Source: a virus. From it: DNA of 64,000 nt. The stretch covers positions 54,982-118,981 of IMG/VR virus record IMGVR_UViG_3300002835_000041, one strand, 5' to 3'. The notes under the pieces are model-generated. The model did not search any database and was not told where the DNA came from. It saw only the letters and a program-made list of their open reading frames with translations. Position 1 is the stretch's first letter. Every line of letters begins with the position of its first letter. A program made the position numbers and the translations under genes. Positions 25,258-28,146 of this stretch are shown here, one piece after another.

Positions 25258-25443
25258 ATGAAAGTAACATTAACAAGCACATCAGGTGCTACAAAAGAAA
25301 TGCATTTTGATACTAAGGATAGAGTATTAGAATTTATTGAGTTATACAAGGCTACACTACATCAGGGTCAGGCAGTGTGTATAGATGCTCCACTGATAGG
25401 CATCCATAGTGGCTGGATACAGGGTAGCGCACCCAAAATGTAG
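25258..25443 (+). CDS. hypothetical small protein (61 aa)
   Basis: It begins MKVTLTSTSGATKEMHF and is weakly related to 22992-23177 on the other strand. It ends the short rightward operon before a terminator. Confidence 0.6.
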   Translation: MKVTLTSTSGATKEMHFDTKDRVLEFIELYKATLHQGQAVCIDAPLIGIHSGWIQGSAPKM

Positions 25444-25453
25444 TGCAAGATCG

Positions 25454-25487
25454 ATAGTGTGTCTATTATGGGCTCACTATTTTTTTG
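25454..25487 (+). terminator. rho-independent terminator
   Basis: ATAGTG (25454-25459) pairs with CACTAT (25475-25480), followed by seven T. It closes the 24902-25443 operon and isolates it from the P450 gene. Confidence 0.7.
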
Positions 25488-25591
25488 TGTTTATTTTTTT
25501 TATAGTATGTATCATACATCTGGACAAAATATTCAGATTTTAGGCTATTTGGTTTTTATAATTTTTCAGATCCGTGGTGTATACTAAAGTT

Positions 25592-26758
25592 ATGTTGCCT
25601 CCAGACGCTCCTGAACTATTTATGCTTTTAAAGAAAGCAACAAAAGGAAACCCATCTGTCAGCATAAATTCAGAAAGCATATTTTTTGCATTTACCAATA
25701 AGGCAGTGGAAGATGTTGCTCTAAACAAATACAACAGTTTTGAAAAAAGCGGTAGACTAAAAGCATTAGACTATGTCCTGGGTGAAGGTCTTATAACCAG
25801 TGAAGAACCTAAGCATATGCACAACAAGAAAGAAATATCTCCAACATTCCACAACGATCATATGGTCGAATATGAAAATAGAATATCTACAATCATAGAC
25901 TCTTTACTTTCTAACTGGTCTGACGAAGTAGATGTTAGAAGGGAAATGGGGTTTTTCGTTTTCAAAAGTATCCTAGAAATATTTTTTTCAGAAAGCATGG
26001 ACGAGTATTTCACGGAAGCAAGAGAAAACGTATCTACAGCATCATATAAAATTGCTAACAGTGTGTACGATGACGAACTGCTTAAGTCAAGAGATGAGTT
26101 AAGAGAGTTTTCTAAAAAAATAGTAGACAAAAGATTAGAGTCTAAAGAAATAAAAAATGATTTTTTAGATATCATCATCAATTCGTACAATAATAAAAAA
26201 ATAGATCTTGACGATCTGTACGACGAAGCAATAACTATGCTATTGGTTGGATATGAAACAACTGCATTTGCATTGGAGTGGGCAGTCTACTATTTGTCGA
26301 TAAATAAAAATTGGCAAGAAAAAATTTCTAGAGAAGAAAATGTTGATGCTTTTATTAATGAGGTTTTGAGAATGTCTCCTCCTATTTGGAATGAATCCAG
26401 GGTAGCGATGGAAGATGTAGAAATAGACGGAGTAATCATACCTACTGGCACACATGTAATGCTAAGTTCTTTGGCCGTACATAGAAACAAAGATGTTTTT
26501 GAAGATCCAGACACCTTTAAACCAGAAAGATGGTTTGGTAATCTAGATTTGTCAAAAGGAGAATATTTTCCATTTTTGTTTGGCAAAAGACAGTGCATCG
26601 GCAAAGAGTTTGCTTTAATGGAAATGAGAATAATGTTAACCAAAATTGCTAAAAAATTCACGGTAGATTTAGCAAGCAATCACACAGGACATACTGCAAC
26701 AATATCCTATAGGCCTAAAGATCCTATTATCATACGTGTCAAAGCAATTGGTGTATAA
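25592..26758 (+). CDS. cytochrome P450
   Basis: The ATG at 25592 is preferred because TATACT (25580-25585) lies 6 bases before it; GTG 25574 is an in-frame alternative inside the promoter. All core P450 motifs are intact: the I-helix oxygen-activating VGYETT (residues about 219-224), the K-helix EVLR (about 257), the FKPERWFG region, and the haem loop FLFGKRQCIG with the thiolate Cys near 335. At 388 residues it is full-length for a soluble bacterial P450. No ferredoxin or reductase gene is seen nearby, so electrons must come from the host or an unrecognised partner. Viral P450s are rare. The substrate is unknown; the next gene, a Cys-tailed peptide, is a candidate. Confidence 0.95.
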   Translation: MLPPDAPELFMLLKKATKGNPSVSINSESIFFAFTNKAVEDVALNKYNSFEKSGRLKALDYVLGEGLITSEEPKHMHNKKEISPTFHNDHMVEYENRISTIIDSLLSNWSDEVDVRREMGFFVFKSILEIFFSESMDEYFTEARENVSTASYKIANSVYDDELLKSRDELREFSKKIVDKRLESKEIKNDFLDIIINSYNNKKIDLDDLYDEAITMLLVGYETTAFALEWAVYYLSINKNWQEKISREENVDAFINEVLRMSPPIWNESRVAMEDVEIDGVIIPTGTHVMLSSLAVHRNKDVFEDPDTFKPERWFGNLDLSKGEYFPFLFGKRQCIGKEFALMEMRIMLTKIAKKFTVDLASNHTGHTATISYRPKDPIIIRVKAIGV

Positions 26759-26766
26759 TAGATAGC

Positions 26767-26949
26767 ATGGGAATATTAGACAATTTTGAAAACGCTTTAA
26801 ACGACAACTTTGAGTTTGAATCAAAACCTATGGCCGAAACAGATGCTATGGGCAGAGAGATTTTTTGGGAAGACTTAGGTCGACCAGAAGATACAAACCT
26901 ACTTGCTCAAAACGGTTGCTCTTGTTCTGGCTGTAGTTGTGGCAAATAA
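26767..26949 (+). CDS. Cys-tailed small peptide next to P450 (60 aa)
   Basis: Its TATAAT box (26754-26759) contains the P450 stop codon and ends 7 bases before the ATG. The product has an acidic N-terminal part (MGILDNFENALNDNFEFE), then MGREIFWEDLGRPED, and ends NGCSCSGCSCGK, four cysteines in seven residues. It could be a metal-binding or redox-active peptide, or a precursor peptide with a modifiable core. No homologue is recognised. Confidence 0.65.
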   Translation: MGILDNFENALNDNFEFESKPMAETDAMGREIFWEDLGRPEDTNLLAQNGCSCSGCSCGK

Positions 26950-26951
26950 TC

Positions 26952-27143
26952 TTAACTAAGAATGCCTCTATTAATAAAGGTTTGATAGATCAAACCAAAC
27001 ATATGCTCTAGCGCTGGACGCTGTTGAATAAGGTTTCTTTCAATTTCTTCATCAGGCATTCCAGTTCCTGCTAGTAATTCAATATTATAAACATTTACTA
27101 CATCGATCATAGTTTCAATAACTTCTTCTCTTGTCATGCCCAT
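26952..27143 (-). CDS. helical hypothetical protein (63 aa)
   Basis: It begins MGMTREEVIETMIDVVNVYN and continues with a hydrophilic helix and LEHMFGLIYQTFI. AAAAGG lies just before the ATG and TATAAT about 25 bases upstream. It converges on the peptide gene with a two-base gap. Unknown function. Confidence 0.6.
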   Translation of the reverse strand: MGMTREEVIETMIDVVNVYNIELLAGTGMPDEEIERNLIQQRPALEHMFGLIYQTFINRGILS

Positions 27144-27177: not shown

Positions 27178-28146
27178 CTAAAGCCAAGGGCCAACTATAT
27201 GATCGTGTTGGTCACTTAGTGAAATTTCAGATTCTTTTTGAAATTTTTCGTATAGTTCATATGAACCTATTCCGTAGACACCCAGAGATGTATCCCCAGA
27301 TAATATTTTTGCAGCCCTAAAGTAGGAATCTTTATTCATATCTCCCCACTCGGAGTGATCTTGCCAATGAAGAACCCTTTTGTCGCTATCATAGTTTTCA
27401 TTATAAGCATGCCACATATAGTGAAACGATGGATTAATTAGTTTAACTCCCCTGGTGTAAAACCTCAAGGCCAGAGTTGGCTCTTCGCCAATAAAATACA
27501 GTTCTTTATCGTACGGTATTTCTTTTATAATCTTTGACTCACAAAACAAAGAGTTAGCACATAAAAAATATGCTTCATATCCATATTTAAAATAATCGCA
27601 CTCGTACCAAAATGGCTGAGGCATGGTGTCTTCATCTTTCCACCCCATAGCCCCTCTCATTGGCACTTTTTCAAAATCGTAGAACTCTTCTATTCCAGTT
27701 TCGTGATCTCTTCTAAATCCTTCTGGGTGCATAGTAAACGCAATCTCAGATTGCCAGTAATCTTTACAGGCGACATAGTTTTCTGTTACTACTTTATCCC
27801 AATCATCAATAAATCTAGAATGGGAGTCTATCTGTAAAAAATAATCAGTATGTATATCCCTAGAGACAATCTCCCTAGCCCAGCATGCGCCTCTACTTTC
27901 AGAAAAATGGTATTTCACATATCTGATTTGAGACTCTGGTATAAAAGACAAATCAGGATGTTCAGATTCATCGGCTTGAGAAACAATTGAAAAAAATAGT
28001 CTATCTCTATACTTTGCATTATAGTATGCGCTAGTTACTGTATTTACAAGATCAGGATCTCTATAACTTGCAATTGAAATAAAAATTGTTTTTGATTTTG
28101 ATGGAACAAAGCGACTAGCAATTAAAGGTACGTTAATCAATTCCAA
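27178..28146 (-). CDS. GlcNAc-transferase of the Skp1-hydroxyproline type
   Basis: The 322-residue protein matches the family that includes the eukaryotic Skp1-hydroxyproline N-acetylglucosaminyltransferase: start TIFISIASYRDPDLVNTV, the metal/nucleotide motif YFLQIDSHSRFIDDWD, RGAMGWKDED, FIGEEPTLALRFYTRG and PSFHYMWHAY. It is a GT-A fold enzyme using a UDP-sugar. The start appears to be TTG, overlapping the stop of the upstream gene. In eukaryotes it acts after a prolyl-4-hydroxylase, and this phage encodes several such oxygenases. The acceptor here is not known. Confidence 0.82.
   Translation of the reverse strand: MELINVPLIASRFVPSKSKTIFISIASYRDPDLVNTVTSAYYNAKYRDRLFFSIVSQADESEHPDLSFIPESQIRYVKYHFSESRGACWAREIVSRDIHTDYFLQIDSHSRFIDDWDKVVTENYVACKDYWQSEIAFTMHPEGFRRDHETGIEEFYDFEKVPMRGAMGWKDEDTMPQPFWYECDYFKYGYEAYFLCANSLFCESKIIKEIPYDKELYFIGEEPTLALRFYTRGVKLINPSFHYMWHAYNENYDSDKRVLHWQDHSEWGDMNKDSYFRAAKILSGDTSLGVYGIGSYELYEKFQKESEISLSDQHDHIVGPWL

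Follow-up and report, generated by a model that had tools for sequence, protein, structure and literature searches.

P450s have been described from giant viruses (Mimiviridae and Pandoraviridae) and, in the account by Lamb et al. as relayed in PMC9405906, lacked an encoded redox partner as then described; these are large nucleocytoplasmic viruses of eukaryotic hosts, and the likeness drawn here is at the level of description. The viral genomes with P450s described by 2022 had no known redox partner, and host partners have been proposed (PMC9405906). When 50,697 phage records were searched with P450 queries, matches were returned to Mycobacterium phage Adler in two records (KF981876 and KC960489), to Pseudomonas phage Y1 (OQ572403; L137) and, in part, to one uncultured phage, so that the rarity of viral P450s claimed in the original prediction was borne out among isolates.

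Adler is likewise a tailed phage with a P450 gene, and its host is an actinobacterium; however, the Adler protein was not matched at an E value of 1e-3 when the P450 of the window (the whole 64,000-nucleotide stretch analysed) was the query, was matched only by other P450 queries (25-27%), and is encoded in a different neighbourhood, with XRE regulators. Y1 likewise has a P450-like ORF, in an unverified and unannotated record, but this ORF is 22% identical to the window P450, has an I-helix that reads ASHQST and falls outside the clade of window-type P450s and the distant phage P450 L025. The Y1 ORF shares about 26% identity with a P450 of a Streptomyces plasmid. Phage P450s are already known but rare, and our sequence comparisons suggest that those of the window type represent a new clade, separate from Y1.

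Bacterial and archaeal P450s (from Nostoc, Niallia, Halomicrobium and Streptomyces) belong to the same superfamily and are 22-33% identical to the phage P450, but those compared are longer (456-488 aa, against 388 aa) and lack, in outgroup sequences where the segment is readable, a Trp (W266; PPIW, PAIW or PPVW after EVLR/ESLR) that is common to all 15 phage-clade sequences. The best cellular match in the collections searched was about 30-33% identical to the window P450, against a named-CYP threshold of >40%. No bacterial relative above about 33% identity was found in these collections, and two contig scans of genomes for a close cellular ancestor, conducted with strict seed patterns and not over Actinobacteria as a phylum, gave no match and then only matches of 22-24%. 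The heme domain of CYP102A1 (P450 BM3) was the best fold match and among the better PDB profile matches; however, it is about 21% identical and is fused to its own reductase, whereas the phage protein stands alone. A self-sufficient P450 of the CYP102 type was rejected, since the 388-aa protein ends after the P450 domain and no flavodoxin domain is present in the record.

We consider it fairly likely (a probability of about 0.6) that the gene encodes a soluble, shortened and catalytically complete P450 monooxygenase, carried as optional phage cargo, that would oxidise a molecule in the infected cell. The whole P450 clade lies at one site, in phages of a group with good representation in IMG/VR; isolates very rarely have a P450. 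The genomes with two copies, the natural active-site variants and the readable promoter make a practical set with which to address the role of a P450 in a phage, and the set is also suited to asking whether the electrons for viral P450s come from redox partners of the host, a question that earlier descriptions of such enzymes have not settled.

The P450 gene and its transcription unit

The P450 gene occupies positions 25592 to 26758 on the plus strand and was annotated from Pfam, motifs, an AlphaFold model and dN/dS ratios. Its frame has no internal stop, either from a GTG at 25574 or from the ATG at 25592, to 26758, and the protein matched the Pfam p450 family with an E value of 7.7e-57 (193.5 bits; cut-off, 22.8). 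With residues counted from ATG 25592, the I-helix reads VG-Y221-E222-T223-T224 and keeps the acid-alcohol pair (E222/T223), the K-helix ExxR is E257-V-L-R260, and the PERW motif is P311-E-R-W314, within FKPERW. The heme loop FPFLFGKRQCIG (F328-L-F-G331-K-R333-Q-C335-I-G337) matches FxxGxRxCxG, and the codon of the heme-thiolate C335 lies at 26594-26596. Neither E257/R260 nor P311-E-R-W314 varied in 13 aligned sequences. The complete P450 that had been predicted, with VGYETT, EVLR, FKPERW and a Cys-containing heme loop, was thus recovered with its frame intact.

The AlphaFold model, built with 13 sequences, had a mean pLDDT of 71 and a pTM of 0.73 (moderate confidence), and Foldseek placed P450 BM3 heme domains as the nearest solved fold (E value of about 1e-16; TM score of about 0.66-0.68). 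The model is poor (pLDDT of <50) at residues 294-334, next to the Cys loop; therefore, it supports a P450 fold but gives no fine detail of the pocket. Compared with the phage P450 L025, the window protein is missing residues at the N terminus as well as segments of the F-G and J-K regions.

ATG 25592 is the better start, because the codons between the GTG and this ATG coincide with a -10 box (TATACT; 25580-25585) and because TGTATA(A/C)T-N5/6-ATG is kept before the 12 other P450 genes inspected in the group; with box and spacing conserved before the ATG in relatives, GTG 25574 is the less likely start. The TG-TATACT element and its 6-nt spacer (25578 to 25591, plus strand) would constitute a leaderless promoter. 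In the record, TATAmT-N4-7-ATG precedes ORFs of at least 45 aa at 24 sites, compared with 1.35 in a block shuffle (18-fold), and the TGTATAmT form does so at 6 sites, compared with 0.05 in shuffled sequence. Both this genome-wide excess and the conservation before other P450 genes uphold the claim that the gene has its own leaderless promoter. Leaderless transcription appears to be common in the phage, many of whose genes have TATAAT 4-7 nt before the ATG; upstream of the L025 P450 gene there is a Shine-Dalgarno-like AAAAGGAG instead of the leaderless box.

The upstream small gene ends in an intrinsic terminator, a stem-loop followed by seven T residues at 25453 to 25486 (plus strand). The terminator with its flanks (25440-25500) folds at -16.1 kcal/mol (z = -4.1), and the stem and T tract are kept in 7 aligned loci, in accordance with the predicted upstream terminator; a simple consensus scan for terminators did not list it. 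This structure is predicted to isolate the P450 unit from upstream transcription. The original prediction of an autonomous transcription unit stands for the promoter and the upstream terminator but is no more than half established, because no terminator was found to separate the P450 gene from the next small gene, which has a leaderless promoter of its own (TATAAT at 26754-26759).

An exchangeable slot and its neighbours

Divergent phages carry a P450 at the same place, with identities of 49-67% to the window protein: 66% in L008 and L009, 64-65% in L010 and L011, and about 49-57% in L018-L022, L032 and L042, all with the same flanking genes. An element, TTCAGATTT, at 25532 to 25540 (plus strand) is conserved upstream of all 7 aligned P450 genes, with a partial second copy (TTCAGAT) at 25565-25571, and many relatives that have no P450 carry one or two copies of it ahead of the small gene. 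On the downstream side, the slot is bordered by a gene for a small Cys-rich phage protein of 60 aa with the C terminus CSCSGCSCGK (26767 to 26949, plus strand), beyond which a conserved 63-aa phage gene (cluster c2; 26952 to 27143, minus strand), a neighbour in most related loci, forms the far border. A second cargo gene, at 27178 to 28146 on the minus strand, encodes a glycosyltransferase of the PF11397 (GlcNAc) family (Pfam E value of 1.2e-31).

In relatives, the slot or the region around it is occupied by a DNA methylase, an endonuclease VII-like HNH gene, a glutathione peroxidase-like gene, 2OG-Fe(II) oxygenases (among them one with a CDGSH motif) or a fusion of the small protein with a JmjC domain; the variety of these genes indicates that the slot is a cargo hotspot. 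On the tree of a neighbouring 256-aa gene, the presence and absence of the P450 require at least four changes (gains or losses), and therefore the P450 comes and goes, as expected for cargo. Judged from these comparisons, the P450 is patchy cargo, flanked on one side by the conserved terminator and on the other by the very widespread gene for the small Cys-rich protein. The fusion of a JmjC-type oxygenase domain to the small protein was read in L080:6001-6765 and also in L074 and L081.

One explanation may be that the substrate is a peptide or protein made by the phage itself, the P450 tailoring either the small Cys-rich protein, as a RiPP-like leader with a Cys core, or a virion protein that is then decorated by the neighbouring glycosyltransferase. 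The adjoining small protein combines a conserved N-terminal region with a tail rich in Cys (MGILDNxEN...MGREKFWEDLGRP...CCxxCxC), the same slot holds 2OG-Fe(II) and JmjC oxygenases in relatives, one of them fused to the small protein, and the glycosyltransferase is close to the P450 and belongs to a family that includes hydroxyproline-modifying enzymes. Furthermore, the distant L025 P450 lies within a glycosyltransferase island, and the best NCBIfam match of the window P450 is the RiPP P450 ApyO, albeit far below the equivalog cut-off (121.6 against 525 bits). However, the distribution of the small gene extends far beyond that of the P450: it has at least 459 viral matches, mostly without a P450, and a P450 is directly upstream in only 12 of the 80 best loci among them. 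This weakens its candidacy as a partner or RiPP precursor dedicated to the P450 and argues against a linked precursor as in the ApyO type; other RiPP enzymes were likewise not seen. Phages that have no P450 (L150-L153) can still have the glycosyltransferase, whose role as an obligatory partner is not supported. On balance, we regard peptide or virion tailoring as unlikely. The small protein had no Pfam or PHROG match, and its Cys module is placed differently among relatives.

Sequence variation, redox partners and predicted chemistry

The phage P450s, including L025 at 32% identity, formed a single tree group with 100/98 support, in a tree whose grouping is limited by a small outgroup set, long branches and sparse cellular sampling. 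Pairwise dN/dS values (NG86) were mostly 0.15-0.37 between lineages and lower for close pairs, which points to purifying selection on the phage P450s. Variability is lowest in the heme loop (mean entropy of 0.22, against 0.99 overall), whereas entropy reaches 1.46 in the F-G region and 1.51 in SRS6 (region borders set by eye). There are two tandem P450 copies in G006/G007 and two in L022, one on each side of the small Cys-rich gene.

It can be envisioned that the P450 protects the phage by breaking down a harmful small molecule, for example an anti-phage compound made by the host or a neighbour. The relatively variable F-G and SRS6 regions, the presence of paralogues in one genome and the patchy, exchangeable behaviour of the cargo would suit substrate diversification; however, no such compound or defence context was identified, and we consider this explanation quite improbable. 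Equally improbable, in our estimation, is the more far-reaching proposal that a phage-only P450 family has diversified within actinophages into altered paralogues (E to K, or Ala in CxG) with a chemistry that has no cellular counterpart, possibly acting on the phage Cys-rich peptide or a virion protein. The altered paralogues are nonetheless the part of this material that might prove to be more than a new clade.

Three kinds of active-site variant bear on whether all these proteins are classical monooxygenases. In L042:4811-5971 and L136:516-1673, which are 87% relatives, the I-helix acid is replaced by Lys; the heme-loop CxG has Ala in place of its Gly in the second copies G006b and L022b (CIA/CVA); and several lineages have Ser instead of the I-helix Gly that precedes Y221. 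The dN/dS ratio between L042 and L136 is 0.09, so these genes are still under selection without the I-helix acid, and classical O2 activation may therefore not persist everywhere. These substitutions, together with the lack of a redox partner among the three families searched, would suit a non-classical or non-catalytic heme protein, such as a peroxygenase, an isomerase or a heme or gas binder. In the window P450, however, both the acid-alcohol pair and a canonical heme motif are intact, which makes such a role doubtful and slightly less probable again than the detoxification of a harmful molecule.

For the window protein we infer an active monooxygenase, because the heme-binding and O2-activating residues are present and the group is under purifying selection. 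No match to Fer2, Fer4_15 or Flavodoxin_1 was found in the window record or in five related P450-phage records, with positive controls; the search covered these three families in six records that may be incomplete. Within that scope, the result agrees with the earlier claim that no redox partner is evident, and it is most likely that the host supplies the electrons.

The favoured reading, an optional monooxygenase cargo, can be set out as follows. The P450 would be carried by a large group of tailed phages of what we take to be freshwater actinobacteria and would be switched on from its own leaderless promoter, presumably during infection. It would take heme and electrons (from ferredoxin plus a reductase) from the host and, with O2, oxidise an organic compound inside the infected cell. 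The target would most likely be a host metabolite, lipid or envelope component, and the phage would benefit.

Phage genome, host and assembly

The window belongs to a 118,981-bp IMG/VR record of a tailed phage that encodes portal, capsid and tail proteins. The host is probably an actinobacterium, because the capsid protein resembles those of Streptomyces phages of the BillNye group (41-43% identity; 43% to BillNye itself) and a WhiB gene is present. WhiB is a marker used for actinophages, and freshwater actinophages are abundant (PMC6802176; PMC10202952); the virus and its host would accordingly be placed in fresh water only tentatively.

Four other IMG/VR contigs cross both edges of the P450 gene, namely, L003 (window 15,708-36,770; 99.9% identity), L004 (18,442-36,770; 99.9%), L005 (15,574-36,755; 100%) and L006 (23,943-34,138; 98.0%), and a fifth, L007, begins within the gene and covers its 3' edge. 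That host DNA was captured by misassembly, or that the gene is a recent, non-functional pick-up, is a negligible prospect: the cellular origin is not traceable, as no close relative was found outside viral contigs, but the spanning contigs and the divergent orthologues at the same site exclude an assembly error, dN/dS is well below 1, and the base composition of the gene resembles that of adjoining phage genes. The contamination or misassembly named at the outset as what would overturn the prediction did not materialise; the P450 is encoded in the phage genome, as an auxiliary metabolic gene should be. Since related viruses hold a P450 at the same exchangeable spot, sometimes in two copies, these sequences indicate that it is a real, maintained phage gene.

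Other oxygenases and modifying enzymes were seen in these phages. 2OG-Fe(II) oxygenases are numerous in a phage record, with PF13640 in 6 of 83 scanned proteins, and carbamoyltransferase domains are present there too. Loci for 2OG-Fe(II) enzymes were read from the sequence at L013:12889-13584, L014:8912-9478, L014:16091-16693 and L014:16696-17247, among others. In L025:7269-17405, the genes around the 32%-identical P450 form an island that comprises glycosyltransferases and an NAD-dependent epimerase.
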